Shown: in pieces, positions 4,344 to 53,781 of the stretch | Position numbering within the stretch: position 1 is the stretch's first letter | Layout of the letters: each line of letters begins with the position of its first letter | Assembly (NCBI GenBank): GCA_947034885.2 | Contig: OX344754.2 | Span: forward strand, 19,486,501-19,550,500 | DNA from: Thuidium tamariscinum | Lineage: Eukaryota > Streptophyta > Bryopsida > Hypnales > Thuidiaceae | Direction: 5' to 3' | Length of the DNA: 64,000 nt | Notes under the pieces: model-generated | Databases searched by the model: none | What the model was told of the DNA's origin: nothing | The model's input: the letters and a program-made list of their open reading frames with translations, nothing else | Made by a program: the position numbers and the translations under genes

Positions 4344-5071
4344 GGGCTTTGGCAAGAAACACTTGTCCTTTTTTTCGTCCCCTTGACCTTTAGGAGGTAG
4401 TTTTTTGCTCATAACTTTTGCATCTTTTGTTCATTTGACTTGAAACTTGAAATTAAGGTGCCTACAAAAGTTTTACATTTTGTGTAGTTTTTTCAATTTT
4501 TTCAAAATTAATTTACTATTTTTAAACTGCCCCTGATTGGGTGTCTACCATGGCCATTTTGGGGGGTTTTAGTCCTATTTTTGACCCAAAAATGAAAATT
4601 TTGAGCTGAAAATTGTCATGCAAGGACCTCACCTAAAGTTACACAATATTGCGAAGATATTTTTTGAAAATAATATATTGTTCAACCTCCACATGTTGTC
4701 AAAGTGGCTGACTTTGCGCAAGTGTAGAGAATAGAATTAATTTTTTCCAAAGATGAAATTTGTTGGGAAAGAAATACCTTTACTTGGAGAAAAAACGGAT
4801 TTTTTATTTTCATTTTTTGAATTTTTTTACTATTTTTACCAAATTAGTGGAAAAGAGCTATTTTCATTGTATTTTCCATTGTCTATAACATTTAGAGAAA
4901 AAATTTCTTAGGTCTGAATTTCAAGAGACATGATATTCTCATTGCTCTTCAAATTATTAATATTTTTTCCAATTTAAAAAAAAATTATTTCAAAGGGTCA
5001 CAGGACTCACAGGACTCACTCATTTTGAGCCATTTTGAGACAAAACCGGTAAGTGTTTCTTGCCACGACCC
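4344..5071. mobile_element. GATTGCAAGAAA-family DNA element (non-autonomous), 728 bp
   Basis: The ends are imperfect inverted repeats (GGGCTTTGGCAAGAAACAC at the left; GTGTTTCTTGCCACGACCC at the right). They are flanked by a perfect 4-bp target duplication AATA (4340-4343 and 5072-5075). The insert interrupts copy 1 of the duplicated unit and is missing from copy 2 at the matching point near 23200, which gives an empty-site comparison. The inside resembles the copy at 29322-30066, sharing the stretch around CCCCTTGACC. No transposase ORF was found. Confidence 0.85.
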
Positions 5072-5554
5072 AATAGACTCTATTGGCTAGTCAATATGCC
5101 ATGTGCATCCTTAAAAGGTTGATTTTTCACAAGCAAACATTAGGACTGACTAACTCTCATATTCTCACATCTCTTGGAATTACTAAATATTATCCTAAAG
5201 TCACTTTTAAGATTTAGAATGATGGAAATTCCAAGGATTAGGAATTTTCCACCTTCTAAGATGTTTCTTCACCATTTTGGTAGAGACTGCTACCAAAACT
5301 CTCCTAACATTCTTTTTATGTATTTTTCTTCTACATTTTACTAAATTCCACAAAACATTCATGAAAAATAGTCCCAAAGTTCCAAGTGCCAGCTTGAGGG
5401 CTCACAACAAGTACGCTAATTTTTTAGTAGAAAATCACTCAAACTTCAAGTGGAATCTATTCATTGACATCGTTTTAGCGAAGACATAACAAGTTTTGTA
5501 ACGTATAAGTAGAGCCATCCAATCGATACAAAGCCAATGTTTGAGAGAGCTGCC

Positions 5555-5668
5555 TCATCTATATCCATGGCCACAAAACAAACACAAAATTGATTTACGG
5601 TCATGTACGAGGTGCCTGCAACAGTACTCCAGTTGTCATCCTTGTCACAAACATAAGCATGAGAATGT
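5555..5668 (-). pseudogene. Decayed LysM-like exon, copy a
   Basis: Read on the minus strand this gives HAYVCDKDDNWSTVAGTSYM followed by TVNQFCVC, open for some 60 codons. The pattern (acidic pair, W, S-x-V-A, aromatic, T-V-x-Q-L/F, then cysteines) resembles a LysM domain, but this is a judgement by eye. Three further copies in the same orientation keep the frame only partly. In three copies the segment ends in or next to a GTGAG-type splice donor; in this copy the donor is degraded. Confidence 0.35.
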
Positions 5669-6741
5669 TATAATGGTTTTTGCATGAAGCGCTATTTCCT
5701 CTCATTGCACTCCCTCATTGTAACAATTGAACACCTTGTTATCCATAATTGTTAAGGTGAAGCCCTTGCACTGTTTTTCACATAGAGAAGCTGATCAATA
5801 AGTCATGTGGTTTGAGATACCTCTCTCCAGTAGTCCCAAGCATGAAAGAGTTCTAACTGAAATCACAATACAGATGTTCCATCCTAGTCTCACTCGTCTA
5901 GTATCTAAGCATGCGATAAGAGCACTCAACTGGTGGCTGGTAAAAAACCAAAGGTTTGTGTATGGCTTTGAGTTGGGACCCTATTCGTTTGGGTACCATG
6001 AGTTCTCAATTTTGATCAGAAAACGTCAATTGGTGAAGCCTGATGAGTACTAGGTTGTGATTACAGTTATTCTGCCATCTTGTGCATACAACTATTAAGC
6101 TTGTCAATGGTGCTTTATGATCCATAATGGCGTCAGGGCATACTCTACGGCATATTACTTCATTGGTAATAATTGTATTGATGTTGGTGAATCTGGTTAA
6201 TTTAGGATTCTCCACTTTAAATTATTTCAAATACTGACTCAAAACAAATACTTGTTAGTGGTTGCTTCTATATGAAGGCCTCGGATTGTTCAATGCTGAA
6301 CCTTGGTCATATCCAATTCCTTGGTATAGACCAACTTTCAGTATAGTGCATGTAGATCTAAGATATTGTTTAATAGAGCAAGAAGAATTGCCTGTACTTA
6401 ATCTCAATAATATCATGTCAAAGAGAGAAGATACACTAGAAGAAAACTACACTATTCACGCCAAAAACTACGTTAAACTTGCCAAACCTACGTTTTACTT
6501 AACAAAGATTGCGTTGGAACTATGTTGCGTTCAACATAACGTGTAGAGTAGATTGTATTGAGTTCTCCCTTCATAACGCAAAATTCTGCGTTTCAACTGG
6601 TCAACACAAAATTGAACAAGGAAAATGCAGAATTCAGCAAGGAAAACACAAAATTTTGTGTTAGAATGAAAAATTACGGATGACAAAGCAGGACTTCAAC
6701 ACAATCCACTCCACGCGTTACGTTGAATGCAAGGGGGAGTA

Positions 6742-6850
6742 ATCTCACTTGCGCCTATGCATCCCAACACACAAGTAGTTTGTTAGGAATACATACACAA
6801 GGTGTCTTCAATTAATCCCCAATTGTTATCCATTGTAAGAATTGAACAAA
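6742..6850 (-). pseudogene. Decayed LysM-like exon, copy b
   Basis: The minus strand aligns with the copies at 5555, 8262 and 9452 (shared DNNW, EDTL and LGCIGA-like segments) but has an in-frame stop after the EDTLCMYS stretch. The donor position reads GCAAGTGAG. It lies 1187 bp from copy a, close to the 1190-bp spacing between copies c and d. Confidence 0.35.
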
Positions 6851-8261
6851 CAAAGCTTACAAGCCAAGCAGTGTAATAATAAATTCTAAAAGAACTTGTC
6901 CCATGATGGTCAAATTGTCTATTATGGTGGAACGATGCCACTTGATTAGATTATTCAGCCTTCATTCCCGTCTCTTGCAGCTTGCGATTGAGTCTAAGTC
7001 ACGAGTGAGTGCTCAAAGCGAGTTCCGATCAAAAACCAAATTGATAGATTGTTTTCCAATACAGTAGTGTCGAGGCTTTATGAAGCCACATGTAGCTTCA
7101 CAAGTAAGACAAAGACTAAATCAATGGATGGTCTAGCTTCTAGTCATAAGAAGCTGTTGTACATCATCACTTGACTGAAGGGACGAAATAACTGTCGTGG
7201 AATAAGGTCCTAATGGTAATGGAATTGAGGTTGTGGGACACCACCCCAATACTAGGGACATGCATTTGTCGTACTGAACCTATTGCATTGAACTTCCCTA
7301 ATATTGTACAAATAACCATCGGTTTGCTTGAGTGTGTGGGAAGGGAGGATGGTGGGTATTCAACCTTGTAAAGTGTTGTTTACCGAGAATGTTCTGGTCC
7401 GAATATTACATTGGTATTAATTTATGCAATAAGCTAGCACCAATTAATAGTAGACTATTTTTTGTTTTACGGATAGCCCATTATTCCACTAACGTATTTT
7501 TGAGTAGGTGAGTGCCACAAGAGGTGGGTAGGTATGCAACTACGCACATTTCATGTCCATACCATGTTTGAATATTGTGAATAATCAAGACATTTACAAA
7601 TAAACTCTAAAATAGGGCCCTATATACAGATTACCATACATCTTAGAGAACAAAATTATGTATGGAGGGAGGGAGGGAAAGAGAGAGAGAGTAGATGTGG
7701 GACACCTCATTTCTGAGCATTTTCTAACACGGCTAAATCTATAGAAATTGCAACCAGATTTTTCTGCAGCAGGAATATGTAATGTTTTGATACATATATT
7801 CCTTGGTGTTTTCGAAACATGGTGTTACGGTCGACATGATTAGTTGGGTTTACAAAGCTATAAGGTCATTTATGAAGATGAAGGACCTCCCTAGTTATAT
7901 CTAAACCACCCAAGATCGAGATAATCGATCATTTATCCTTCTTTCATGTTCCAGTTTAATAGAGTTCACTCCATGTCTACATTTTTGTGAGCTTTCTCAC
8001 TAGCAATCATGCAACCTTATCTCGGAAGCCAAAAGTATGTCTGTCTCGATGAACAACAATCATATGATACAATGTTGGATGTATATCATACTAGATTTAT
8101 ACTGATTGTATCACCATAAAGCTAGAAAACCAGTAACTAAAGTATTGTAGCCATGATATGTTACAACATAGGGTAATATTATTACTCAACCAAGGAAAGT
8201 ATGTGTTCGTAATGGCAGTAAAAAAAATCTGCATAATACTCATGCGAAAGTTGAAGGAATT

Positions 8262-8375
8262 GCCTCACCTGCACCCATGGCCACAAACAAACACAAAGTC
8301 AGTTTTTGGTCATATGCAAGGTGTCTTCACCAATATTCCAAGTTTCATTCTTGTCACAACAAAAGCAAGAGAAAA
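8262..8375 (-). pseudogene. Decayed LysM-like exon, copy c
   Basis: The minus strand reads CCDKNETWNIGEDTLHMTKN, then an in-frame stop, then LCVC, ending at a good donor context GCAG|GTGAGG. It aligns base by base with copy a (5555-5668) over roughly 110 bp. The stop shows this copy is not functional as it stands. Confidence 0.35.
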
Positions 8376-9451
8376 TCAGAAATCAATATGTAAACTTGTA
8401 AGCTGATGCGTGCTAAAATCTACTCTCATCATATTAACAAGTATATTCTCAGGACTAGCAACCGTATTAGCCATTGGTGTTGAAACCGCAACCCTGTTCT
8501 GTAAACTTGCTTGTGTTCACACACATGCTGTAAGCAGCGTCACTTAGCCTTCCACCAGCGTCCAATGTCAACATAACAATACTCAATGTGAAATCGGGTA
8601 GGCTGCATGTGAGAGGTACACTAGTTGTTATATATGGAGTGAGTAAGTGTGGCAAGGGGTATGAGTTACAAGTAACAAGATTTGAACAAATGTACTTGTT
8701 TCAGCTTCCTGATCAAGAATTGTTTTGAATTTGGAGCCGTCATACCTTCTGCTGGATACTTACCTAGCTGTTGTGCATTATAAAACTTAATGGCTTGTCT
8801 GTTAATACATTTGGCATAATAACTGTCTACGGAGGATCATGGTAGATCAATATCTCTGGCATTCAACCAGCTCAGTGTGTTGAGTCAGAGTTTTCAGTGT
8901 ATCATTTGTAGTATTTAAAAAAAATACATACATCACCTTTGGCTTTTGGGAAGGTACTAGTTTGTTATAAGCCTTGGTGATTCTGGTGGTTGCTCTTTTG
9001 TGCCAGTTAATGATCTGACTATAATGTTTGGAATTTCTTTTTGAGAAAAGAATATAACTAAACATTAAAAGAACTTGCAAATATTCAATATTTCCCCATG
9101 GAACAGGGGGAGAGAGAGAGAAGATGAGTCATCACCTTGTCAAGACATGCCCTTTCTACTAAACTTAAGGTAAGCAAAGGCCTGGTGCAACTTGTTAGTT
9201 GTAACAACTTACACAATTTAAGGTAATAATTTTCAAGCGTCATTCTCAATGAACATTTTTTCCTTGCCAACTGAAAGGGTGGAATTACCAAGGCCTATAT
9301 TTCTATACTAATGAAACAATATGATCAACAAGTGTAAAAAATGTTAACTTCCATACACCAAATGTGGTAAAAAAAATGGAAACTAGTTTTGAACAAATTT
9401 CATGAGCCAAAATGTGGAAATCTTGAAAACTACTTAAAGCTTGAGGGTCTT

Positions 9452-9560
9452 GGCCTCACCTGTGCCCATACATCCCAAACAAATACAAAGTTAGTTAAGA
9501 TGTGTACAGTAGGTATCTACAGCCAAGGACTAGTTGTTATCCTTTTCACAAGCAAAAAGT
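9452..9560 (-). pseudogene. Decayed LysM-like exon, copy d
   Basis: This is the fourth member of the set. The minus strand reads FACEKDNN, then a stop, with later LCICLGCMGTGEA across a donor-like ACAG|GTGAGG. It lies just outside the left end of the CACTA element, so that insertion (9612) landed beside this array. Confidence 0.35.
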
Positions 9561-9988
9561 AAATTCAAAAAAGTCCAAGAAGAGCAAAGAATGATCCATT
9601 GCAACAAGTGTCACTACTAGAAAATGGGGCCCATTTTTGCATAGATTGAGTTGATTATTGTCGATTTCAACAATTATTTATGATGAAATGGCTAATTTGT
9701 CCATTTTGTCTGGACAATCAGCATAGATTGTGTAATTGTGGGAACCTAGAATACAGGTTTTTAATATTTAGTATAGAATTAGGAATAAGGAAGCTAATCT
9801 TAGATAAATTTTTCGATTCTTTGATCAAGAATAGGGAAAGTTAGTAAGATTAGGAAGAGGTGGAAGTTGGAGACATCCAATTGGGATAATTAGGTTAAGA
9901 AAGGGAAGTAGAAACCCTTACCTAACCGGAAAATCCGGAACCGGATTGAGGATCTGGGGTTCAGCCCGAGGATCGTGGACGGGTCCAG

Positions 9989-10504
9989 ATGTCATCCAAG
10001 GGCAAGGGTTCAGTGGAAGAGAAGACTCCACAGGCGCCCAAGGCAGCTTCCCGACTTGATCTTGATGTGGGAGAAGGGGCAACACCCGGATCCCAAATCC
10101 GGAAGCAAGTCCAAGCGGAAGACCAGGATCAAGAGACGCCTCCGAGCAAGGTATCCGAGAAATCTCCCAAGGTTCCTAGCACAATGAAGAGGAAGGCTAC
10201 AGCGAAACGGGCGAGAGAGAGTCCCATTGAGCTGGAGTCAGACCAAGATGAGTCCCCAGAGCAGAGCGAGCACGAAGAAGAGGAGTCGGATTCGGAATCC
10301 GGATCAGGATCGGAACCGGAACCGGAACCGTCAGAGCCGGCGGAAATCACGCCTCCGAAATCTGCGGGGAAGGGTAAGATTGCTGCCACGCCTTCCAAGG
10401 GCAAAGCAGCTGCGTCGGCAAAGGTTTCCACCAGTAGGAAACAGCCAGCACGTAAGGGAGCCGCCAAGCATGCGGATTCCCCCAAAAAGCGGATGAAGAA
10501 GTAG
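9989..10504 (+). CDS. 171-codon charged ORF inside the solo LTR
   Basis: This is an uninterrupted frame from ATG to stop within the LTR. The product is low-complexity and strongly charged. The N-terminal third is Lys/Gln/Pro-rich, the centre (about residues 75-115) is Ser/Glu/Asp-rich with repeated E-P steps, and the C-terminal third is Lys/Ala-rich ending KKRMKK, which resembles nuclear localisation and chromatin-binding tails. No enzymatic domain is visible. A reading frame in an LTR is unusual. It may be an accessory element protein or a captured host fragment, or just open by composition (three frames are open here because the tract is GC-rich). Confidence 0.35.
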   Translation: MSSKGKGSVEEKTPQAPKAASRLDLDVGEGATPGSQIRKQVQAEDQDQETPPSKVSEKSPKVPSTMKRKATAKRARESPIELESDQDESPEQSEHEEEESDSESGSGSEPEPEPSEPAEITPPKSAGKGKIAATPSKGKAAASAKVSTSRKQPARKGAAKHADSPKKRMKK

Positions 10505-11534
10505 TTAGGAATAGAAAGTAGAGTAGGTAGAGAATTTTGAGGAGCAAACTTAGTGGAAAAGGTGGAAAGTTACCTTTCCAGTAGGTAGGAAGCAGTTAGC
10601 AAGGTGCTTTTGACTTAGAATGCACCTGGTCAGTCAGATCCGGATTTTTCGGATCTGAGATCCACTTTTTTCGGGTCCAGTTGGGTGGATAGGAAAGTGA
10701 CTTTTGTGGATAAGGAATGCCACCTGGCATTCTCTTGTCCTCTGATTTTGTTCCCTTGGGGCTTTTAGGGTTCCCTTGGGTTGGTATTTAGGGGTGGCTG
10801 TTAGTTGGTTGCCCCGGGTGTTCCTACTTCTGTTTTTCCTTTCATTTGCAATCTGATTTCCAGATTTCTACTTTCTAAGAGTTGGTCTGAACAAGTCTCG
10901 ACTCTGGATTGGTATGCCGTGCAATGCTAGAACCATTGGATAGTGCGAGGTAGCTGGGTTTGCAGGTGTTTGGATGAGGTGTCTCCCCCAGACTTTGTCT
11001 GAATCCGGTTCCGGGAAATTGAAGTGATTTGGTTGAGGCTACTGGTGTATTAGGATTGAAGTCTAGCTGCTGCAGTCACTTGGAGGCTTCTGTGTGGGAA
11101 AGCCGCTCTTAGATTGGGTGTGTTCTGCTAGGAGAGTGGGCGCATGCCAATTGACGTGTTGTTGAAGTCCTACTATAACCGGAAGTGAGGGATGTGCAGA
11201 CAGTTAGGATCCCCTAGTTATCTGGCTCCTAGATTAAGCCTTAGGAACTGAGTTTGGGTGAGTCTGTCATTGTAGTAATGTGGGGTTTGTAGGGGTTTCC
11301 TGAGTGACCTGCTAGTTGGGATTGCAATCCGGATTAGTTGTGAGGAGGAACTTGCAGCCTATTTCTTTTATGTCTTTTGTTATTTTTCTCTTTTAGTGGA
11401 ACTCCATTCACTATAATCCTGAGGAGGGTAGGATTCAACGCATCCTTCCTAAATGCCAACCGCGGACCCCTCTAATATAGAGGCTAAACTTCATTGGTTA
11501 CTTGAGTGATTGGATCCGGAAACCGGATCCGGAA

Positions 11535-11628
11535 GAGGTACAGAGTTTGGGCACTCCTTTCGGTTCCTAATCCGCCCAGTCGGATACTGTGAGTCCGGAT
11601 AGGGGAAGGTACAGAGTTTGGGCACTCC
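11535..11628 (+). repeat. Short internal duplication in the LTR
   Basis: The 20-base motif GGTACAGAGTTTGGGCACTC occurs at about 11535 and again at about 11608, separated by sequence rich in TCCGGAT. It is a local duplication within the R/U5 part of the solo LTR. Confidence 0.6.
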
Positions 11629-14521
11629 CCCCTGTTTGGAGGTTGTTGTGAGAGTGGTAAAGTATGTATGAATGGTGAGAAAGGCAATCTAAAGGAATGC
11701 GGATGTTGTGAGGAAGTTTCCGGTTAGGAATCCGGTTACTGTTGTCTTGGGGTTGTTTTCCGCATCCTGTTATTCCGGATATCTTGAGGAATCTACGTAA
11801 AATCCTGTGGGAACGATACACGAGTCATTTGAACGGTGTTAACGCCAAATTAACACCTACAGACGGATTTGTGCTTCCTTGTGCTACGACAGTAATCAAC
11901 ATAGATTTTAGTTGATTTGAAACTAATCAATGATCAATAAACTAAAAATGTTGAGTTTAATCAACATAGATTGCCTAAAATTGTTGATTTCTATTCATTT
12001 GAAATGTTCAATCATCAAATAATAAAGATTCCAACCAAAATTAAAGTAATTTTTTAGGAGATTTAGAATCTTTCAAAAATCTTTTTGGAAACTATTAAAA
12101 TCTTTTGAATCCTCCAAAAAACTTTTAGAGTACTTTAGAAATCTTTCAAAATCTTTTAGAAGTCTTCAAATCATCTATTTAAATTTTATTACTAGAATCT
12201 TTTTTTAAATCCATTAAAAATTGTTAAATATATTGAAATCTTTTCAAACTTATTTGAATCTATTCAAATCTTAAAAAAGAATTTAATTTTCCAAAATCTT
12301 TTGAAATCATTTGGAATCTTTCAAAAAGTATGAATTCCAATATTGAATTTTAATTAAATTTTTATCAAATATAATTTGAATTTAATTTCGATTTGAATTC
12401 CAATGAAAGTCAATAATTATGATTCAAACTTAAAATTTGATCAAAATTTGAATCAAATTTAGCTCTAACTCAAATTTTGATTCAAATAACTTAATGAAAA
12501 TTCAAACTTTGATTCAACTTAGTTTGATTAATTCAAATTTGATGAAAATCCTAGTCCTAATTCTAGTGCAATTTTAAATCAATACAATATATAGTTTGAT
12601 TAGAGTTCAAACTTACAAGTTCATTGAATTTCTAACTTATATTTTGAAATATTTTTGTTCTAATTCTAATTTAATTCTAATTCTAAGTTTTGAATCAAAA
12701 AATTTAAGTTTTTGTGCCATTTATAATTCAATTTCAAATTTTCAATTATTTGAATATGAGCTCTTCAAGCCTTAAATTGTCAACAACATTTTTCTACTAA
12801 AACATTCAATATTATAATTTTTGGTGCACTCATCCAAGAAGCCAAAAATGTATATTTTTTTTAATCAATTCATAGGATTGGCCACTTTACTTGTCCTAGA
12901 TCATATGCTAAATATTCTAGGTATTCTAGCAAATAAATTTAACCTTAAAATAAAATTTTGATTAAAAGAAGATTATATCAATATATGAATCCTATAGGTT
13001 ATTTTATCACTAAAATACTTAAATACATATAAATTAAAAATCTTTATAACTTATTCAACACTAGTACAATTAGAGAGACTCAAAGCTTCACATATGACGT
13101 AGAACACAATGTTTGAGTGAAAAATAACCAATTTTATTTTGACAATTTGTGGGGTTGTTTGTATTGTCTACCAAATTTAGTTTTGAGCTTATTGTGGCAT
13201 AGATTTTGCTCCCAAGCACTAATTTAAATACAAATTATAATTATAAAAATATAATAAGATTTTTATTATGTGTCAAAGTTTCACCATATATAAATCAAAG
13301 TCATACAAACTTGCTTGAAATCCATTTTGTCTTTTGAAGGGACACTGATAAATTTTTAAAAAAAATCTAAACTTTGAAATATTCAAAATGTAAATTTTCA
13401 AATTTTCAAATATTTGAATTTGAAACATTCAAAATTAAATATTTGATCTATTCAAACTTTTAGATTAAAAATATTTAATAATTAAACTATTTAATAATTA
13501 AACTATTTAATTCCAAGTTTTGGCCAAACTACTTCTAGAAAATTGGTTGTCAGATTCTCCAAATATTTTATAAAAAATTGAAAATTTTACCACTGAAACT
13601 AGACCTCAATATCTATTAAATCCAACAAGTTTCATAAAAATCAAATTTTCAACAAAGTAGAAAATGTCTTGCAAAGTTGGCTGATTGAAAAAATATAGTG
13701 GAAATGAATGAATTAAACTTACTGCAGCCAAACAAGCTCTAGAAAAATGGTTGTCAAATTTTCCAAACATGTCACTAAAAATTAAAAATTCTACTACTAA
13801 AACTAGACTTCAATATCTATTGAACCTCCTATGTATCAAAAGTTATGAACAAATTTCAAAGAGAAATTGGAGAAAAAAAAATCTTTGACAATTTGAAACA
13901 TTCTCTCTAAAAATCATTCTACTATGTCTAAATGAGGTCTGAAATTTTACTGAGAGTATGTTTTCTAGTTTTTGACTTAACTACAAGCGGTTGAACTCCT
14001 ACTCATTCTAAAATCACATCCCATATGGTTTGCTCAACCTCCTACCACCCCACTTGTATAAACAGTTTGTCTTCTCCTCTATTGAAGCACCAAAGTAAGT
14101 GTCTTTCAAAGATCACTTTCCCTCTCTAATCTCTATTGTATCACTTGGAATGCGGTGTTGCAATTTTGGCCCATTTCATTTGAAGAATAGAATCTATATT
14201 GAAAACTTTAATAAATTATAGCTAATTTAAATAATTAAATTAAAATTAATTAATTAAACTTTAATTAATGTGGCAGATTTTTCCTATGTGGTAGTCCATG
14301 TGGCAAATTTTTTGTTAATAAAATAAAAATAATTTTTGATGATGTGGCAGTTGTTTAAATCTGACGTGGCATAATCATGAAGACATTCATCCTACATGGC
14401 ATAATTAACATAACTATGCTAAAAAGTATCCAAATCAAGTTGTCCTAACCAACTCTTTTTCTAGAAAGAAAATATACTAACATCTCTGCTAGAATGGACA
14501 TCAATTTTTCTAGTAGTGTGT

Positions 14522-15719
14522 TTTCTCTCTTGTCATACCTTCTCAGCCATGGTGTGTTTTTCTACACTCAAATTGTTACTGCTACTAGGATTTGCATTGT
14601 AAGACACTCAATCAGCACTTGTACTTCCAAAGCTCTCAGTTGATGACTTCACATGTAGTAGGGAGCCAAGCAGACAGAAGCCCAAAATTCTCAGTTCACA
14701 ACTTCACATGTAGCGAGGAACTAAGCAAACAGAAGCCCACATTTGAGCAACAATGTGAGGTTGTTGCTTGTGACTAGTAGCCTAGTTTAGATTGTTTAGC
14801 TTGTTGACCACTTAGCTTGACATGGTTCTCTAATGGTATCACATAGTCACATAGTATCACATGCCATGATAAGCCATGGATGTGTTTGATTTTTGGCACA
14901 GAAGTTAGTCAGTATTGACATTAATTAGGTGGCAGTGCATTGGTATACATCAAGCCTCTATTTTTTATCCACTTAATTAGATTCAAGTGGTTAATAAACT
15001 ACCATACTCTGTTATAGTTTTTTGGTGGGCTTCAGTCAGATGGTGGATGTCCTTCTGTCTTCCAATCATTAGTGTGATTTATCAATCACACTATATAGAA
15101 GCCGTCACAAATAGTGATTGTGTCATAGCTATCATGTATGTAGTATGTGGTAGCTTTTATTGGACATTTTCTAGGAAGCAATTATCTACTTCCTAACCAC
15201 CATGTCTTTTGCACATGTGTTACCAATTTTTGCCATTTAGTGAACTCCCATACTTTTTGAGGTAGGTGTACCTACAATGGTGAAAGTTTTGGGAGGGTGA
15301 AGTCTATTGCCAAGATGATTAGTCCAATAACATGTAGTTTTTTGGATGGATGTATATACCATTTTGTTTTCACAATTGTATGCAATGCCATTCGTTGGAC
15401 AATTAAGTTCCATAGTAGGCTAAATAGGAAATGTGAATAACACTTTTTTTTGTTTCATTTGGCTCAATGTTTGTATTGCCAATAGATTGTGTATATTTCA
15501 TGAGAGTTTTACACATAATGGAAGTGTATTTCCAAAAGTGTATTTGATATGATGCCAAATGCTAATTTTCTCGTAATTATTTGCATATAGAGAGAGACAC
15601 ACACATACACACACATACAAGTGTGTGTAGAGGACATATTTAACAAATAGAAAGATGAATTAACTAATTCATTTTTGGGAATTGTTGTAAGAGGATTTTT
15701 ATTTTGTTCTTTAAAATAA
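14522..15719. other. Non-coding tract, no gene seen
   Basis: Apart from the 55-bp tandem pair at 14635-14744 this AT-rich stretch has only short frames with no recognisable product. A CA/GA-rich simple sequence lies near 15590-15625. Confidence 0.5.
14635..14744 (+). repeat. 55-bp unit in two tandem copies
   Basis: The units 14635-14689 and 14690-14744 share CTCAGTT, ACTTCACATGTAG and the CAGAAGCCCA block, with about ten differences. They abut exactly. Confidence 0.7.
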
Positions 15720-17020
15720 ATCCTTAAATAGGATTCAAACTCTAGGAGGTAAACTATCCCAATTGGTTTGTAAAATATACCCAAAGGAAAGCCAATTGCA
15801 AAATTGTGATTATAAAAATTATTCCTAAATTGTGTATCAAAAACCAATCGGCTTAGAATTACTTATCAATTTAATTGGCCTTAGCATCTTTTAAATTTGT
15901 TGATTGGTTTCTTCTCGGTTTGCTTCCCAGCTTCCACTCCATCTCTTGATTGTTTTCTTTACAGCCAGTCCAACAACCATAGCATCTCCCAATTGGTCTT
16001 TGGCTTCACAAATTCAATCTCTCAATTTTTACCAATCAACTTTCCTCACAAGTAATCGCTCAAGACAATTTCTTGATTCTCAAATTTAATTCCTATTGGT
16101 CTCTATTTAATTATTTTAATGTTGCAAATTATACTCCCAATCATTTTCTCTAGATTTTACAATACAATATGAATTCTCTCAGTATCTCCAATTGATATTC
16201 CTATTTCTTATTCTCAAACACAACTTTTATAAATGATTTACGTTATTCCATTCACGGTATTTCTCAATTGGTTAATGACTACAGTTTCCTTCAAACATAC
16301 TATCTCATAATCAGTTTATCATTAAAACACATTCTTTAACTTATTAAATTATAAACATTTATATTAATCTTAATTCCAATCGTGTAAACTATTAAATTTC
16401 TCAAATTATTTCAATCTATCACAATTGTTCAATCACATCAATTTCTTACTCCATCAATTTTTAATTCAATTCATACAATTTACCTAATTGGTATTCATAT
16501 CACATGTATTCTATTTAACTCCAATTGGTGGTTCTACACTCAACAAATCAACTCAATCCCAATCAGTCCATGAAAACACACATACACAACATACCATACA
16601 TAGCATCCCAATTGCACACAATTCTCCAATTGAAATCACACACGTACACACACAGGTTACACAAATACATAATTTGCAAACTATCTCACTCTATTCATTA
16701 CAATCAAAAATACAAAATTACACAATTGTTTTACTTCCACAATCAAAAAGGAGCGCCTACTTTCTCTTGAGGTCAATTGAGCTCAACAATTGAAAAAACA
16801 GACTACATAATCAGCCAACCAGTCAAATTGCGGATCGGCAAAACTGCCCTTTTGAATTACATCACCGTATTGGCAAAAATATGGATTAAACATCTAAAAA
16901 CTACCAATTGGCTATAAAGTGAAATAAAAGTCAGTCCATAGTTGTCAAGGGATAATAAAATAAAAAATTCATTTGAAATAAACCAATTGTCTAAAAACTT
17001 GTGCCTTAGTATATAAATTG
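15720..17020. repeat. Tract dense in CCAATTGG / CAATTG motifs
   Basis: About twenty copies of CAATTG or its one-mismatch relatives occur in 1.3 kb, several in the full palindrome CCAATTGG (15759, 15989, 16522, 16903). Neighbouring tracts have far fewer. Repeats of a short palindrome over about a kilobase are typical of subterminal protein-binding arrays of DNA transposons, but I could not find matching ends. No coding potential was recognised. Confidence 0.5.
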
Positions 17021-17087
17021 AATTGCACTAGTTTGGAAATCATTGGTCAAATGGAGACAAAACCAAAGTTAATATTGTACGTGTAGG

Positions 17088-17827
17088 GAGCAATTGCAAA
17101 AAATACTTGTCCTATTTAACTATTTTCCATCACATGAAATGTGCTAATTTATTTTTTGACCACAAGTTTTTGTGTTTTAACTCCAAATGACTTAAGACTC
17201 ATTAAAAGGGTACTACTGACTATCATACAAGTTTCTTGATTTTTTTGATAATTTTCAAAAATAATTTACTATCCAAAAATAGACCCAAAATGTATGTCGC
17301 ACTTGCCAACTTGGAGGTTTCTATTATTATATTGAGAACCTTTTTTGAAAATTTCTATTGTGAAATTTTATAGAGTTTTTTCTATTATATGAATACAACT
17401 TCCCACCAAAGGAATTTAAAAAATAGTTAATTCTATATGGTGTAGAAGTCGGTAAAATGAGTTTCTTTCTGCTTGCATTTTCAAACATATAAAATATTAT
17501 TTTTATGGATTTTTTGGTGATTGACCATCTCCATAAAGTTTTTACAAATGGACAGTTTCTATTTTTGTATTTACTTATTTATACCATTTTAAATTAATTT
17601 TTGAATCATAGAACCTATTTTTTTGAGATTTGGTACTTTTCAAGTTCTCCTATTTAGAGAATTTTCTATCCATTTCCTTCAGTGAAAACATTTGTCTCAA
17701 GGTGTATACGTTACTCATATTTTTAAAATTAAGAAAAAAATAGTTTTCTAATTTTAAAGTACTCCAAAAAAATCATGAGCATTATTGAAAATGCAGCAAA
17801 TAGTACAAGTCTTTCTTGCAATCACCC
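17088..17827. mobile_element. GATTGCAAGAAA-family DNA element, 740 bp
   Basis: The left end GAGCAATTGCAAAAAATACT and right end AGTCTTTCTTGCAATCACCC are imperfect inverted repeats. A perfect 4-bp duplication TAGG flanks them (17084-17087 and 17828-17831). The internal sequence matches, in reverse, the copies at 53060-53781 and 27336-28079 (for example the TTTTCTATCCATTTCCTTC region). No transposase was found. Confidence 0.8.
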
Positions 17828-17829
17828 TA

Positions 17830-18091
17830 GGTTAGTTTTGTAAAAAACTCATGAAAATCTGAAAGATGTCAAAATTTACAAAATTATTTACAACTATTTT
17901 CAAAAATTAGAAAATATTGTTCTTCAGAAAAATTAGAAAAAATAATGTATTTGCATATGTATAGAAAAAATGAATCCAAAGTTAGGAATATCTTCATAAA
18001 TTGCCAAAAATTATAAAAATTCTTATGTATCTATCAAATTGTCGAATTGTTAAAATTAAAATATTTCAGCAAGTTTATACCAAAACTGACC
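17830..18091. mobile_element. GGTYAGTTTYG-family MITE, TA target, 262 bp
   Basis: Inverted ends GGTTAGTTTTGTA and GGTCAGTTTTGGTA (reverse strand) sit between TA dinucleotides at 17828-17829 and 18092-18093. A homologous element in opposite orientation lies at 45150-45404. The preceding GATTGCAAGAAA-family element inserted at or next to its left end, since that element's duplication TAGG overlaps this terminus. Confidence 0.65.
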
Positions 18092-18417
18092 TATACATAT
18101 GTGAGCCCCCGATTTGTCACTAGGGATTCATTGGTTCTTCTTTTTTGATTCCTACATATTTCAATGTACAAATAGGTATATAAAGCCCACAAAAGAGTAT
18201 AGAACTAGTATTGGCATCCTAAATGCCAATACACTATTTGGTTGATAGAAGGGGTTTGTATGAGTTTGTGGCCCAAGTAGGTCTTACATTGGGTAAATTG
18301 ACGACAATTGAGGGAAATATGAGGAAATAGGGCGATAAGTCCACAAGGGCTACATTGGGTTAGGTAGTCTCGGGTAGAAGAATCTAGGATGAGAATCTAC
18401 CTTCCCATAACATCGAA
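18092..18417. other. Short non-coding stretch, no gene seen
   Basis: No frame of note. It may hold a highly diverged extension of the duplicated unit, but I could not align it confidently to the sequence left of 754. Confidence 0.4.
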
Positions 18418-18557
18418 GAAGTGTGAGTGCTTCTAACTCCAGCCTTGAGCTAAAAGTTTATCACACGGGTTCTGTGTCTAATCAAGTAATTCTCTCTAAT
18501 TAATTGGGTTTTCAAAGAGTGCTTTTTAAGCAATGAACTCTTTTAATTACGTCTTCT

Positions 18558-19647
18558 GGGTAGTTGCAAGAAAGGGTGAACGGTTTTGTAGCGTTTTGCA
18601 AAACTGGCTTTTGTCCAAGCTATAACTTTTGAGTTTTAAGCCCAACGCCAAAAGCAAAAATTGTAATTCTAAATGTTTTGATTCAAATTGTATCACTTAT
18701 TTTTCAAAAAATTTCAAAAATAATTTTATATTTAAAAGTCAATTTCTCTAATTTGTCACACTTTCAATGTTTTTTGTTTTTTGTACCAAAAAGTATCCAA
18801 ATTTAATTATTTAGGAAAGAAATTTTGGTGGTCTATTCCTACACTAATTGGACATGTCCCATGGGAGGGGCATAAAAAAATACATTATTATATGTCCTCC
18901 ATGTTTGTCCAAATAGGCCAAAACAAAGGGTCCATTGTGCGCACACTTCTAAACATAGAAGATGGATTGAAGATCATTCTTTTGGTGAAATCTCATCACT
19001 ATAATGTCCTTACAAATGGCCAGTTTTTAGATTTTTTTAGTTCACTATAAGTATTTAATTAAAAATACAAACGTTGAAATACTCCTTTTCTACCTACAAC
19101 TCTACATGTAGGTAGAAAAGTAGTATTTCAACGTTTGTATTTTTAATTAAATACTTATAGTGAACTAAAAAAATCTAAAAACTGGCCATTTGTAAGGACA
19201 TTATAGTGATGAGATTTCACCAAAAGAATGATCTTCAATCCATCTTCTATGTTCAGAAGTGTGCGCGCAATGGACCCTTTGTTTTGGCCTATTTGGACAA
19301 ACATGGAGGACATAAAATAATGTATTTTTTTATGCCCCTCCCATGGGACATGTCCAATTAGTGTAGGAATAGACCACCAAAATTTCTTTCCTAAATAATT
19401 AAATTTGGATACTTTTTGGTACAAAAAACAAAAAACATTGAAAGTGTGACAAATTAGAGAAATTGACTTTTAAATATAAAATTATTTTTGAAAATTTCTG
19501 AAAAATAATTGATACAATTTGAATCAAAACATTTAGAAATACAATTTTTGCTTTTGGCATTGGGCTTAAAACTCAAAAGTTATAGCTTGGACAAAAGCCA
19601 GTTTTGCAAAACGCTACAAAATCGTTCACCCTTTCTTGCAACTACCC
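18558..19647. mobile_element. Near-perfect foldback element, 541-bp arms, 8-bp loop
   Basis: The left arm 18558-19098 and right arm 19107-19647 are reverse complements with only a few differences, joined by an 8-base loop (ACTCTACA). The ends GGGTAGTTGCAAG and CTTGCAACTACCC carry a 4-bp target duplication TTCT (18554-18557 and 19648-19651), marking it as a member of the GATTGCAAGAAA family. The arm sequence matches one half of the ordinary member at 27336-28079, so it appears to be an inverted dimer of one element half. The arms encode the same incidental 89-codon frame in opposite directions (18781-19050 plus, 19155-19424 minus) with two residue differences. A transcript would form a 540-bp duplex. 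Confidence 0.9.
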
Positions 19648-26993: not shown

Positions 26994-28121
26994 TGGTGAA
27001 AACATCCAAAATTGTCGAAATAAAGAATGCAGCATATTTGGAGGCAATTTTTTTTTATTATAGTATTTTTCTAATATTAGTGAATGAAACTCATGAATAT
27101 TAAAAAAAATAGATTTTTAGGATGCCATATGTAATTTTTATGATTTTCCAAAATATTGGTTTCCTTTACCATTGAAACCGTTCAATAGATGCCCCTAAAT
27201 TTGAACATTGCTAAAATCAATAGTGAGCCACAAATTTTGGTATGTGTCCTTAAAATGCTTCAACAAATTAAAATCAAGCATTTGGCAAGCACATTAACTA
27301 TAGTCTAGGGACGATTTTGGATGAATCTAGGATCCGGGTCATTACAAGAAAGGGCGTGCAAAAAGTGTAGCGTTTTTTGTAGTACTCCTTTTCACTTTTG
27401 GGAGTACTTTAAAATTAGAAAACTAATTTTTTTTTAAAGTGGAATATTTTTCATGTATATATCTTTAAGGAGAAGGTAAACTATGAAGGAAAATTATAGA
27501 AAAATTCTCTAACTAGGTGAACTAGAAAAGTACAAAATCTCATGAAAATAGTGATTGACACTATAATTTCACATTTAAATTTATTAAAAATATTTAAATA
27601 ATTTTTATAAAAAAATAAAAAAATTCCATTTGGGAAGAGTTGATGGTGATGATATTTCACCAAAAGAATGATCTAAAAGCTGTCTTCAATATTCAAAAAT
27701 AGCACACAATGAAAGGAAGGTTTACACTCATGTGGAGGACATGAAATAATGAATTTTCAAATTTTCTTTGGTAGATACATGTTTTACTATTATTCAAATA
27801 GACCATGAAAGTTTGAGCTGCAGACCATTAAATTTAGTGACTCATAACATAGTGAAAACCCCTAATCGTCAACTTGTGACAAATTAACAAAAATAGTTTT
27901 TAAATACAAAATTATTTTCATTAATTTCTAAAAAATAAGGGATCTAATTTTAACAAATTTATACATGTTCAATAAAAATTTCATGTTCATTCTAATTGTG
28001 CTTCAAAAGTTATAGCAAAAATCACGAGAATGGTTTCAATTGTGACTAGGAAACTAGTCACCCTTTTTTGCAATCACCCATCTAATGCAAAGTACAAGTG
28101 CAGTATTGGGTGTTTTTCCCT
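26994..28121. mobile_element. GGAAACACCC-family element, TA target, interrupted copy
   Basis: It is the same family as 41286-41671 and 43035-43422. The ends TGGTGAAAACATCC and GGGTGTTTTTCCCT lie between TA dinucleotides (26992-26993 and 28122-28123). A 744-bp GATTGCAAGAAA-family element is nested at 27336-28079, so the host element is about 380 bp. It is the most diverged of the three copies. It probably belongs to a Tc1/mariner-like (TA-target) group and has no transposase. Confidence 0.75.
27336..28079. mobile_element. GATTGCAAGAAA-family DNA element, 744 bp
   Basis: Ends are GGGTCATTACAAGAAA and TTTTTTGCAATCACCC. The flanks ATCC / ATCT are a 4-bp target duplication with one change. It is nested inside the TA-target element 26994-28121. 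Its left half matches the 53060-53781 copy and its right half matches the arms of the 18558-19647 foldback, which links the two subtypes. Confidence 0.8.
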
Positions 28122-28123
28122 TA

Positions 28124-29321: not shown

Positions 29322-30066
29322 CGATGATTGCAAGAAACACTTGTCCTATTTTTCGTCCCCTTGACCTCCAACAGGTAGTTTTTTGCTTATAACTTTTTCA
29401 TCTTTTGCCCTATCAACTTGAAATTTGGAGTGAAGGTGTACACAAGAGTTTTATATGTTGTGTAATTTTTTTAATTTCTTAAAAATTAGTTTACTATTCT
29501 TAAACTTTCCCCGATTGGCTGGCTACCTTGGCCATTTTCGAGGTTTTTAGTCCTATTTTTTACTGAAAAATCTGAATTTGAAGCCACAAATTGGACAAGT
29601 TGGAGGTCTACTAACATTTCAAGGATTGACGGTGAGTTTTATAAAAATAGTAAAATGTCTATTGTCCACATAGGGTCAAAGTGACATTCCTTTGCTCAAG
29701 CTCTACGAAGAGGGAAAAAAAATTTAGAGGAATTTTTTATTGCAATGTCTGCACAATTTTGTTTAGAAAAATGGATTTTCATAAAATAATTTTTTGATTT
29801 TTTTGGAATTATTAAAAATAAAAAGGTCCACAGACCCTTTTTCTGCTATTTTCTACTCCATGTGGCATGTGAAGTACTTGTAGTAGTCTATAGTATTGCA
29901 TAGTACTACACTGATGGCCCAGATCTGCAGGTGCCTGAAATCGACGATTGAGATTTGTAGGCGCGCGTCAAACGCGCTATATTGTCACGATCACGTAGTA
30001 CTCCCACTACTATGCTAAAAAGCAGCATTTTGAGCCAAAAACGTGAAGTGTTTTTTGCAATCACCC
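29322..30066. mobile_element. GATTGCAAGAAA-family DNA element, 745 bp
   Basis: The left end is CGATGATTGCAAGAAACACT and the right end GTGTTTTTTGCAATCACCC. The flanks TGCA / TACA (29318-29321 and 30067-30070) are a near-match 4-bp duplication. The interior resembles 4344-5071. Near 29962 there is a short GC-rich palindrome-like run (GCGCGCGTCAAACGCGC). It lies about 280 bp past the stop codon of the receptor-kinase gene. Confidence 0.8.
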
Positions 30067-30345: not shown

Positions 30346-48511
<18,166 letters not shown>

Positions 48512-49327
48512 CAGCACCGGTGATCGAGAACTTGCGAATCTGGCCCGGGTGCACGGGCGAGAGTTTGATGTAGACGACTTGTACTGATGACTTAGCGACT
48601 TTAATACTTACTAGATTTATGATGCCAAGAAGTGGAAACTGCACTCATCCGGTACCTCTGATCCGCTAAACTGTCTCTCGATCCTCCTTGCGTACGTACG
48701 TTCAAATGCACATGCTAGCGACGAAGATGAAATTCTCCGGCCAGAGAAACTGAGTGACTTCTGAAGGCTCAGTTTGCTGATTACCACACAGGACTTTGAT
48801 TAGCAAACCGTGAACTGACTTTCAAAAGTCGGTGATCGATGAAAGCTGGACGGGACATACTTCGCCGTACAGTACCAGGACCTCATAGGGACGGCTAGCT
48901 GTCCGGCGCGTTGAACTGTAGCCACGCGGGCTACCTCCCTTTGAAAAATGGTACTCTACTGTATAGCACAGCAGGTAACTCAAATACCTGATTTGTGCGC
49001 GGGATTTCTGGGGCCAGTGGGGCATATACTGTATGGCACTCGCGAGGTATCGATTCTTATAGTAGAAGAGAAACGAAACCCAAGATTAGTGCTCAATGAC
49101 AGCTTAAAGCCATGCAGGCACATTGATCTTCTAAGTTACCATGATATAAGGTAAATTAACCCTTGAAGGACGGACGCGTGGCCGTGGAAATCATGCACTT
49201 TGATACCGTGTGACATCATCTGCTACCGGCTAGTACCCAATGCCAGTACGTGGGTTAACTAACTTACATCTTGGATCCAAATACCCAGGGTTGTAAACCT
49301 TGTGGCCTATCCGACTAACTGAACGTG
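48512..49327. promoter_or_regulatory. Upstream region of the receptor-kinase gene
   Basis: No competing gene was found. This GC-richer 0.8 kb should hold the promoter and 5' leader of the minus-strand kinase gene. I could not identify a TATA box or transcription start with confidence. Confidence 0.4.
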
Positions 49328-49336
49328 GCGTAGAAG

Positions 49337-49562
49337 GGCCAGGGAGAACTGACCCCCTTATTGCCCCAGACGGTAAAAACTGACCCCTATTTTGTGCCGT
49401 GCAAATTTTGTATTTTTCACCCTCCCTAGCTAACTTGGGGCCTCTGATTGCAAATATAAATTCAGAATTTGCAAAAAAAAATCATAAGTGGCAAGAAAAC
49501 AAATTTCAGTGTTTTACTCAGGGGTAAGAAGGGGGCAATAAGGGGGTCAGTTCACCCTGGCC
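49337..49562. mobile_element. MULE-type MITE with perfect 9-bp target duplication, 226 bp
   Basis: The ends GGCCAGGGAGAACTGACCCC and its mirror (reverse strand GGCCAGGGTGAACTGACCCC) are flanked by the 9-base duplication GCGTAGAAG (49328-49336 and 49563-49571). A 9-bp duplication is the hallmark of Mutator-like elements. The interior is shared with 45566-45857. No ORF. Confidence 0.85.
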
Positions 49563-49571
49563 GCGTAGAAG

Positions 49572-50729
49572 CAACCAAAAACTTACACTCTGGCTTTCTG
49601 CCCCAAAACTGCCATTCTTTCTGCCCGGAATCCCGGATTAGCTGGGGGTGCAGTTGATGATTTCTCCTGTAAGGTTAATTTACTGGTCCCTTTCAAAGAT
49701 AATCAACCCAAGCAGATTCGTAACTACGTGACGCACTCGAGGCGTAGACTGTGTGCTGATCCTGGAATCTGAGCTTTAACTACGAACCCTGGAAGAACGC
49801 GGGGATCCTCTGGAATTCATCTTTTCTAAAACCATGAGAATCATTGATAATAAAATATTAAAAAAACTCATTTGAAGTCAAAGAACTATAGAAGATCTCC
49901 TCTTTCCCTCCTAAAACCGAGGATGAACGATTGCATTTCTGTCCTACATGGGCAAATTCCTTGTCATTCATCGGACACTAAATATCCGCGTACTTCAATT
50001 TATCCTTTTATTAGACAAGGCTAATAAAAATAGAGTATAAATTACAGTACTGTAGTTTGCAGCAAATTTCAACTGCCGCATTGAGCTCGGGTCCAGGTAC
50101 AGAGCACCTGACATTTTGCTTGGATCCAATAAGTACGCTCTAATTGAAATCCTCCAGATTTTTTTCTCTTTTAAATTATGATAGTGAGTTGCAATTTTCT
50201 CTTGAAAGGTGAACGCAAAATTTGTCAGCTTGCTGAAGCTTTGACGCCTTTAGAATAATAATAATAATAGTAATTTGATGTTTCATCGGTCATAGCGGAT
50301 TAGCGGTTTAGATAATTATTAATCACTTTTCTAAAAACTAAACAGTTATGGCACAAATTTGATCTGTGCAATTTCAGGTACACCTTTGGAGTTGAGATGT
50401 GGTCTAGTGGCTGTATACTTGGAGAAACTTAACTTCTGAATGGCAAACCCATTTTTCCCAGTAACAGGCTGGGAACAAGCATGCATCTGCACATTGGGAT
50501 TCTGGGATCTCCGTGGTGAAAACTGTAAGGGAATGCAGGGTACTCTATTGCTACAGGTTTGGTATATAGCATGGAGGATTCCATGCTCAGTTGTTAACAA
50601 TCATGTCCTGCGTTGCTAACCATTAGAAGTAATTGGGAAAGCCCAGCAACAACGAATCCCAGGGGTACGGGTGTATATGGGCATGATTTGGAGCAGTCTT
50701 CGATCTCCTTGCCAAGTAATTAAAATGAT
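49572..50729. other. Intergenic tract, no gene seen
   Basis: Short frames only. One minus-strand frame at 50600-50346 (84 codons) has no recognisable motif and no conserved neighbour. Confidence 0.5.
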
Positions 50730-51416
50730 GAGAGCATCCCCACCAGGTGAGTTCCCTATCCCTAAAAATTTAGGGAGAGGACCTCAAATGGGGATGGGGA
50801 TACAGAAGCTTGCACGCACCAGTCTCAAAGCAAAATCTCTACCCCAAATTATAGAGAACTCGCTAAAAGTTGCATCCAATTCCCTATATCCGAGCTCATA
50901 TAGAGAACTCATTAGAGAAAATATGGGCTCTCCGGAGGGCCGCTAAGCGCTGCCGGAGAGACCCATCGTAAAGATTTATTTTCATTTCGACAGTTTTTTT
51001 CCCCTATTGACATTCGTGTCAGTTTTGGTGTTGTCAGAGCATTTAATCATAAAGGAAATACAAAAAAATTCAAGTTGCAGCTTCCAGCTTCCAGGTGGAC
51101 TGCGAAAGAGGGAACCTGTCATCTCTCCCAAAGAGGGAACCTGTCATCTCTCCCTGACAGATATAGAATTAAAAAAGAAAGATGCTTAAGATATTCACAC
51201 AAGCTGAAAGGCATTTCTATTAGTAATTTCGTCCTTTCAGTAGCTTAGTAGAGGTGCAGTACAGGTGCAGTAATAGACTGGTTTGTCAAAGTCTGACGGC
51301 CCTCCACAGAGTCCATATTTTCTCTACTGCGTGAGGTCTCATCCCTATAAAGTCAAGGTTGACTACATTGAGATCCCAAGTTTAGGTAAAGAGAACACCC
51401 TGGTGGGGATGCTCTC
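50730..51416. mobile_element. GAGAGCATCCCC-type MITE, 687 bp
   Basis: The left end GAGAGCATCCCCACCAGGTG and the right end (reverse strand GAGAGCATCCCCACCAGGGT) are inverted repeats that continue imperfectly for about 40 bp. The GAGCATC start recalls common plant Harbinger- or hAT-type MITEs, but no clear target duplication was seen. Inside, AAAGAGGGAACCTGTCATCT is duplicated in tandem (about 51105-51153). Confidence 0.7.
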
Positions 51417-52429
51417 AGTGAGTGTCTTAAGTTGACAGGAACGTCAACAAGGAATCAGATTGAGAAGATACTTGAGGTCCTCGGAAGACTTGCTCCGGTA
51501 ACTGCTACTATACATCTGGCCTAATGAATGACTACAATAGTTTGGCGGAATGAAATTAGTTCCTTGTAGCCAGACAGTGTCGGTCATGGCAGGCCTGTGT
51601 GTAGCTAATTTTTGAGAGACTTGAGACAGAAGGCCATCAATGGCAGCTTGGTCTCATTGCTATAGTTGATCTGGATTTGGGCACTTAGCTAGTCGACAGT
51701 AGCCAACACCAATCATTGGCCTTGATCCTGTGAGGAACCAATTAAATCATCAATACTACGATCAATGGCGCAATTAGTTGGTTAGGTAACTACGTTCTCC
51801 CGCCACTATACACGAACGTGAGGATCCAAGTCCAGAGAAGAAAAAACTAATAAGAGGACTTTCCATCAACGATTCTGTCGATAATGTTTGCAAAAAAAGC
51901 GCTATGGACCAAAAAAACTTACCGCTCCTTCTATTTGCAGCAGCCAAACACCGCTGCAGTGATATAAGACTGGAAACATAATCTGACAGCCGTGACTGAC
52001 GCCAATACTTGCAGCATTTTCTGGGTATCAAAACTTTCAAGTAAAATACCTGCACTAGCAAGAAAACATTGCACTATGATACGCAAGCAAGACCAAAAAA
52101 AAATCAGACCAGTCCGAGGACAGGGAGGGGTCCGACTGTTCGCATCCCTCATTCCCTCCCCTCGACCAAGCTTAAATACAGAGGCTTAATTTTCGTCTGG
52201 CTACTCCACATTGTAACTAAGTACCTGATGTTTGCTACAGTTTCAATTTCAGCGTACATTCTTCTAGCTATCGAAAATTTAGATGGACTGTTGTTGCACT
52301 TAATTTGTCATGAGGTAAAATGACAAAGCCTGACAGCTCGACAAACTTTGCGTTATTATTCTCTGCATCGATTGACTTGACATTATTAGGAGCACAAGCA
52401 AGACCATCACGGAATATTTTTATGATTTA
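51417..52429. other. Intergenic tract with a short repeat shared with 54.4 kb
   Basis: No gene was recognised. The stretch at about 52115-52195 (GGGGTCCGACT, CCAAGCTTAAATACAGAG) is similar to 54370-54425 (AGGGTCCGACT, CCAAGTTTAAATACAGAG), so this is a second low-copy repeat. Confidence 0.4.
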
Positions 52430-52742
52430 ATGGCGAATTTTATTAAAATGGTGAAATTCCACTAGTTTGACACTTTCTACAGTTGAGATTGCCCAATCTG
52501 AAATCTAAATTAGTTATAGATTTTGTGAAATTTATAAAAGTCGTAGATATCTAAAATTTGTATTTGTCCAAGATGTTTCACACCATGTAATTTGAAATCT
52601 AACTTTGCTGTAAATTTTAAAAATTTATATGTGTCCTAAATGTCTAAAATTCTATACCAATCATAGATATCAGCTTTCAGTTCAGACCATGTGGCCTGAA
52701 AAATGGCATATTCAATAGTGCCATCTTAACAAAATGTGCCAT
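52430..52742. mobile_element. ATGGCGAATTTC-family MITE, 313 bp
   Basis: The ends ATGGCGAATTTTATTAAAAT and the mirror (ending AAAATGTGCCAT) are shared with the three intronic copies of the kinase gene. It lies in reverse relative to them, since the TTTGACACTTT motif lies near the left end. Confidence 0.75.
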
Positions 52743-53059
52743 CTTACAAAAAAGTCTAGTCTTCTGAACCCATCAGAAAATCAGAAATCCCTAAAATTTA
52801 GATCACCGTTCCACCCAAATTTTAAATTCTACATTACATCTTCTAAAGATGTCGATCAGCTCCCGGATGGCTTTGTTCAAGAACTGACCGCACTGAGGTC
52901 GTACTAAGTGCTTCGGCGGAAGCTTCATTCCTCAACTTCCAATCGTTCCATTTCTATTTGAAAAGGCTTGTGGGCAATTGCAATTTCAGTACACTTTCAT
53001 ACTTCCTCTGAAAGCAGCGCTAAAATCTCAGGGTGCAGGCTAACAATAGAGACGGGATA

Positions 53060-53781
53060 GGGCGATTGCAAGAAACACCTATCCTATTTGTTGCGTTTGG
53101 CTGATTTTTTCGGGAGTACTTTAAAATTAGAAAATTAATTTTAAAAAAATTTTAAAAATATGAATAGTGTATATACCTCTAAGATGAAGGTTTTTACTGA
53201 AGGAAATGGATAGAAAAATTCTCTAAGTAGGAGAACTTGAAAAGTGCCAAACCTCCAAAAAATACATACCTTCATGTTTTAATTAGGGAAAAATAGTAAA
53301 AATAGATATTTTCAAAAAATAAAAAGTGGCCATTTGCAACAACTTTATGGAGATGGTCATTCACAAAAGAACCCACCAAAATAATATTTTATATGTTTCA
53401 AAATACAAGCAGAAGGGAGCTCACTTTGTAGACCTCCACACCTCACAAAATTAACTTTTTTTTTAATCCTTCCCTAGAAATCTAGAAGTCTATTAGAAGA
53501 CCATCTCATCCAAATTTCATGTTAAAATCATTAAAAAAAGGTATAGCTCAGGTATTGAAAACCTCCAAACTGCCAAGTGTGACATCTAATTGGGGTCTAT
53601 TTTTGGATAGTAAAATATTTTTAAAAATTATGAGAAAATTATGGAAGATTCATGATAGTTATAAGTACCTTCCCTACAAATCTTGAGTCAATCGGAGTTA
53701 AAACACAAAAGTTATAGCCAAAAAACAAATCAGAATGCGACGTATGACACAAAATAGGACAGGTGTTTCTTGCAATCACCC
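53060..53781. mobile_element. GATTGCAAGAAA-family DNA element, 722 bp, best-preserved ends
   Basis: The left end GGGCGATTGCAAGAAACACC and right end GGTGTTTCTTGCAATCACCC differ by one base. The 4-bp duplication GATA is perfect (53056-53059 and 53782-53785). The interior aligns with 27336-28079 and, inverted, with 17088-17827. It is probably the youngest ordinary copy here. No transposase frame. Confidence 0.9.

Follow-up and report, generated by a model that had tools for sequence, protein, structure and literature searches.

The window analysed here is a 64,000-base stretch of the genome of the moss Thuidium tamariscinum (assembly GCA_947034885.2, contig OX344754.2, here C6:19486501-19550500), and it carries many copies of one family of short inverted-repeat elements. 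Most of the copies read are about 720-750 bp long, AT-rich and non-coding; their ends read GGG...CCC, and the outer 16 bp of their terminal inverted repeats, GGGTGATTGCAAGAAA with small variants, are common to the subfamilies. Family sequence makes up 16 stretches and 8,456 of the 64,000 bases (13%), including nine degraded stretches beyond the seven copies first delimited; the library used to find them contained the window's own copies, and the reversed window gave 0. The 16-mer itself occurs 12 times in the window at up to three mismatches, against an expectation of 0.94, a count that none of 100 shuffles reaches. An Rfam scan of the window at the gathering threshold returned no match, and viral and prokaryote contigs contain no exact copy of a 23-letter end pattern.

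The family extends throughout the assembly, which comprises 363,211,507 bases in 19 contigs, with 362.9 Mb in eleven large contigs from C1 (54.2 Mb) to C11 (17.5 Mb). The plastid contig, C19, carries an intact rbcL, with tRNA-Arg(CCG) lying between rbcL and accD, as is the gene order in bryophytes. Exact 16-mer ends number 6,139 genome-wide (3,024 + 3,115), and the reversed pattern 0; at up to two mismatches the count rises to 24,744 (12,352 + 12,392), against 108 (57 + 51) for the reversed pattern. This count amounts to some 12,300 two-ended equivalents as a minimum, since older ends can have more than two mismatches, as seen in the window copies at 4344 and 17088 with one four-mismatch end each. 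Across 24 loci picked for other reasons, which neighbour other transposons and include the near-identical duplicates L067 and L068, family sequence accounts for 3,781 of 92,073 bases in four merged stretches.

The element inserts at AT-rich sites and duplicates 4 bp of the target. Specifically, a set of 59 end pairs was assembled by joining each left end to the closest right end 500-1,300 bp away, allowing up to three mismatches per end and counting each element sequence once; 46 pairs show a perfect repeat over exactly four bases, eight match at three of the four, five have none, and no pair has a longer one. Mispaired ends, used as a control, give a 4-bp match in 0.7% of cases. The targets in this set share no fixed word. 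The set includes the loci L009-L038, so that about half of it represents one subfamily of 722 bp, while the window copies at 4344 and 17088 are absent because of their worn ends. L009-L038 are the best matches to the window copy at 53060-53781 (L009 is that copy, and L015 and L016 represent a single insertion whose surrounding segment is duplicated), and all 30 carry a perfect 4-bp repeat at the main copy, with words as varied as CCAA, TTAG, GTGT and CGGT. Among hairpin-shaped copies beyond those, nine of ten have a perfect 4-bp repeat and the tenth reads TAAA/TTAA. The first-pass annotation had argued that a 4-bp duplication excludes the usual plant groups and had proposed tabulating it over many copies; the tabulation bears this out.

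Paralogous empty sites lead to the same length. When the two flanks were joined with one copy of the four bases, 46 matches to paralogous copies of the host repeat were obtained for 11 insertions, including the window copy at 27336-28079, whose empty site in L028 reads GTCC in a single copy. In 38 of the 46 the alignment runs without gaps through the single 4-base site, at least once for each of the 11 insertions, which supports a duplication of exactly 4 bp at all of them. As such, the many copies and the empty sites confirm the original view of these repeats as a DNA-transposon family. The reading as satellites or chance inverted pairs can be dismissed as virtually nil, refuted by the empty sites and at odds with the defined ends, the duplications, the near-zero control counts and the presence of copies on all but one of the eleven large contigs among the matches listed.

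Table 1 Copies and fragments of the family in the window (positions counted from its first base)
Feature	Position	Strand	Target duplication and remarks
Copy, 728 bp	4344..5071	.	AATA/AATA; one end with 4 mismatches
Copy, 740 bp	17088..17827	.	TAGG/TAGG; left end with 4 mismatches to the 16-mer
Hairpin copy, 1090 bp	18558..19647	.	TTCT/TTCT
Degraded family fragment	27030..27155	.	
Copy, 744 bp	27336..28079	.	ATCC/ATCT (3/4)
Copy, 745 bp	29322..30066	.	TGCA/TACA (3/4)
Degraded copy	38020..38675	.	Left end discernible at 38019, 4 mismatches
Degraded family fragment	40121..40450	.	
Degraded family fragment	41288..41446	.	
Four degraded fragments, cluster 43037..44877	43037-43197, 43440-43729, 43951-44116, 44549-44877	.	
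Older outer copy	45995..47156	.	AGAA/AGAA; interrupted from ~46497 to 46955
Partial inner copy	46497..46955	.	Left end intact; right end unrecognised, right boundary approximate
Degraded family fragment	52430..52742	.	
Copy, young 722-723 bp subfamily	53060..53781	.	GATA/GATA

Seven bounded copies had been reported for the window, and six stand as they were delimited. The four duplications described as perfect (AATA, TAGG, TTCT and GATA) are all visible in the printed ends and flanks, and two of the three called near-perfect match at three of four positions (Table 1). The remaining one, 46497-47156, shows no repeat because it pairs ends of two different copies, the left one of an inner copy and the right one of the older copy around it. 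The stretches 45995-46496 and ~46956-47156 are the halves of that older copy, as indicated on both sides by blast and by alignment to three relatives, and the real element is thus 45995-47156.

Several subfamilies have been amplified. In the 722-723 bp subfamily the terminal repeat reaches 30 bp, and 30 copies chosen by likeness to one window copy have a mean identity of 97.4% to their consensus and 95.7% pairwise, with a longest open frame of 66 amino acids (aa). Different subfamilies share only about 60% identity over 500-700 bp at nearly constant length, and the family is therefore old. The ends of a third subfamily fall into type X (GACCGGTAC, 241 ends) and type Y (GACCGACC, 211 ends); among 200 listed ends (the first 100 of each type) there are 57 pairs of 715-745 bp, all of them XY.

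A further branch consists of hairpins, with 66 ends and 24 pairs of 1,079-1,091 bp genome-wide. The window copy at 18558 has two 541-bp arms that are 98% complementary (98.1% identical) with 8 bp between them; arm identity within a copy is 98.5% in L072 and 92.8% in L039. As judged from L039, the arms correspond to roughly the first 520-540 bp of the 720-bp copies, and this match to one end of the ordinary element points to an origin by inverted copying of that end. The hairpin lineages of the window copy and of L039 differ by about 27%, and L070, whose arms come one from each lineage and are 73% alike, shows exchange between them. From these four copies, either the hairpin formed twice near the same place or its arms are kept alike by copying. 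Small hairpin elements of other kinds are nested in some family copies (L047:331-663 and L071:664-899, both approximate).

The ends were also used to look for a full-length autonomous copy, as the first-pass annotation had suggested, and no autonomous element was found among the elements read. Three distant exact-end pairs on C1 (4314188/4320719, 4864936/4875156 and 9143547/9146168) are neighbouring copies and not long elements, since their first ends have family ends about 610, 760 and 730 bp away; the inner pair of 610 bp has no matching repeat and that of 760 bp matches at three of four bases. A YY pair of 8,690 bp (C3:29908548) likewise proved to be two 733-bp copies. Known from end positions alone are longer XY pairs of 931 bp (C1:45583679), 2,568 bp (C2:39500992) and 5,068 bp (C2:41887352) and a YY pair of 6,818 bp (C2:33575440). 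The 2.6- and 5.1-kb intervals on C2, which have perfect ends, are the best leads to a partner, and all four longer pairs may be 733-bp copies with a nested insert. In a simulation, at least two plus/minus pairs at 1.2-10 kb arise by chance in about 0.9% of comparable end lists; one of two such pairs here consists of two ordinary copies, and clustering therefore inflates the number of long pairs.

Atypical ends led back to short copies. None of the 89 ends that have something other than the known A/C at subterminal position 31 is paired at 2-10 kb; seven were read, giving six copies with both ends, 720-1,080 bp long (L047 among them has another hairpin inside), and L042, which has no right end. 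In the hairpin subfamily 48 of the 66 ends are paired. The 12 read from the 18 unpaired ones comprise seven hairpins whose second half is altered, cut or absent (L069-L074 and L085), three copies measuring 745-768 bp and a truncated one; the last, L084, has no family similarity and is perhaps a protein-coding exon. Across 140 ends in 317 kb, six with at least 200 bp of inner sequence have no family-like interior, and none of the six has a duplication-bearing partner. Both the hairpin and the XY subfamily have few long elements.

Profile searches for transposases complete this picture. PF20231 (DUF6589) gave no match in the genome, but the control genomes were equally silent, and the gene may yet be present. 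PF13359 (DDE_Tnp_4) yields 331 Harbinger-type candidates, and four strong loci, of 150 listed, have no paired family ends within about 1.5 kb. Seven of the PF13359 matches are identical in score and frame length; these 458-aa frames lie on five contigs and suggest a recently active PIF/Harbinger family. PF10551 (MULE) has 33 matches, none of them inside the longer candidate X/Y intervals.

The available data are best explained by a model in which a large non-autonomous family of considerable age and with fairly recent activity, similar to miniature inverted-repeat transposable elements (MITEs), is moved in trans by a cut-and-paste enzyme making 4-bp staggered cuts, a reading to which we give a probability of roughly 85%. 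A transposase supplied in trans would bind the element ends, presumably at the 16-bp core, and join them to the two strands of the target with a stagger of four bases, and gap repair would then yield the 4-bp duplication. As a side branch, about 540 bp of one end was copied in inverted orientation to form the 1.08-1.09 kb hairpins, which were then amplified.

Several observations weigh against this model. Five of the 59 end pairs have no duplication, one of them being the window mispair and another (L049) no copy; eight of the 46 empty-site alignments have gaps near the junction; and seven odd copies (L070, L072, L081-L083, L086 and L087) have two perfect repeats, two at three of four positions and three at two of four. 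Furthermore, we infer the trans-acting enzyme because no autonomous element occurs among the copies read, and the only grounds for assigning it to a type are the length of the duplication and a publication on another moss.

That assignment is to the Sola type, which we favour tentatively. Sola elements make 4-bp duplications, have been reported from the moss Physcomitrella and have terminal inverted repeats of 11-1124 bp (PMC10741241; published statements here and below come from passages of the articles cited). The family resembles them in its 4-bp duplications and its terminal inverted repeats (16-30 bp, or 541 bp in the hairpin), a likeness by description and not by termini. Sola belongs to the known 4-bp groups together with Ginger1/2, AcademX and IS481EU (PMC10045372, PMC10741241). 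Duplications are 4 or 4-5 bp long in Ginger1 and Ginger2 and 6 bp long in GingerRoot; the family agrees with Ginger in duplication length but differs from its TG...CA ends (PMC10045372, PMC10741241).

That the enzyme instead comes from an undescribed superfamily with 4-bp staggered cuts is possible, if doubtful. It would fit the failure to link any examined transposase family (DUF6589, four of 150 DDE_Tnp_4 loci, DUF7869) to these ends, but a failed find in a limited search is a weak argument, and the profiles covered families other than Sola, Ginger1/2, AcademX and IS481EU. A broader version seems unlikely to us, namely that over a long period such a superfamily made at least about 12,000 mini-elements and that copying of one hairpin arm onto the other kept the two alike, so that the hairpin itself is preserved, possibly as a source of double-stranded RNA.

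Still less probable is an unusual PIF/Harbinger (PHIS) or Mutator partner making duplications of 4 bp in place of 3 bp or 7-12 bp. Harbinger-type genes are plentiful, duplications span 0-4 bp in PHIS and 4-10 bp in the IS256/MuDR group (PMC10045372), and Harbinger ends mostly start with A or G (PMC4482050). However, the named PHIS groups have short, fixed targets (TWA, AT, ANT, CWG, TNA; PMC4482050), whereas the targets here are only AT-rich, the four strong Harbinger loci inspected are without paired ends within about 1.5 kb, and the MULE matches, known by position alone, are as few as 33.

A partner among the abundant elements with DUF7869 (PF25273) proteins, which may be Sola-like, is very unlikely. 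There are 853 first-look candidates, many with open frames of 950-1,076 aa, and the element at L049 abuts an end-like sequence with two mismatches, its conserved 3' sequence starting directly after the 23rd base of the family end (L049:2053). Against this, fourteen group A loci share different 3' termini, AACAC..AATTAGACATT or AATTCGTTATTTTTGCACTTGG, and two group B loci terminate in GGCC(A/T)TATTCGTTAAAATGAGAC. L049 is alone among the fourteen in adjoining an end-like sequence, and its arrangement is probably a nested insertion because none of six further loci in its subgroup adjoins such a sequence. The candidates listed number 150 of the 853, and other lineages are possible.

Compared with established groups, the family stands apart by its 4-bp duplication without a fixed target. 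It is short, non-coding, high in copy number and bounded by inverted repeats and a duplication, like the plant MITEs of Tourist, Stowaway, hAT, CACTA and Mutator types, and at 720-1,090 bp it lies near or above the usual MITE size of 50-800 bp. It differs in duplication length from hAT (8 bp) and CACTA (3 bp) elements and from Tc1/Mariner with its TA duplication, and its varied duplications differ from the TTAA target of piggyBac and Kolobok. CMC elements have CAC-type ends, which the family does not share. Chapaev, also suggested at first as a 4-bp group, is now placed in EnSpm (PMC4455052), and the CMC duplications of 2-4 bp (PMC4482050) would allow the length. The family also departs from the 3-bp TWA duplication of PIF/Harbinger (PMC4482050) and the 7-12 bp of Mutator (PMC10741241). 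Its 1.08-1.09 kb copies are almost wholly inverted repeat, like foldback or long-hairpin MITEs; their arms are 93-98% alike in three of the four copies compared, and mixed in the fourth.

No description of this family appears among the matches listed (titles and abstract openings) on moss MITEs, Sola and related topics, and we file it as a new family of a familiar kind, set apart by literature descriptions and not by sequence comparison with Repbase or Dfam. Five superfamilies are the primary classes for MITEs in a survey that covers 207 plant genomes, bryophytes contributing four (PMC12550479), and such schemes could miss or misfile a family of this size with 4-bp duplications in a rarely surveyed plant lineage. 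A partner, if found, would reveal either Sola-type transposons as leading contributors to a moss genome or a new transposase.

The DUF7869 proteins themselves are hugely expanded, and all 150 scored candidates lie above the cut-off; the literature searched contains no mention of the domain. Their elements (L049-L053 and L056-L068) are transposon-like with shared 3' ends. Upstream of two group B frames (L052:900-1900 and L053:800-1800) lie several palindromes, each about 19 bp long and set apart from the next, for example TATCTTCGAGTCGAAGATA; they differ in sequence between copies and are possible binding sites. L067 on C11 and L068 on C2 are 98.3% identical over at least 5.46 kb and contain mini-transposon copies upstream of the DUF7869 frame.

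C11 makes up 4.8% of the genome and holds 47 of the 150 listed DUF7869 matches. It has none of the 40 full-length family matches, 89 ends and 66 ends listed genome-wide, where about 2, 4 and 3 would be expected; L067 holds family copies, so the family is not absent from this contig, which is possibly a sex chromosome or isolated in some other way. Finally, the window contains pieces of a protein kinase gene and a Pif1-type helicase, at 31879-32442 and 63053-63400, both on the minus strand.

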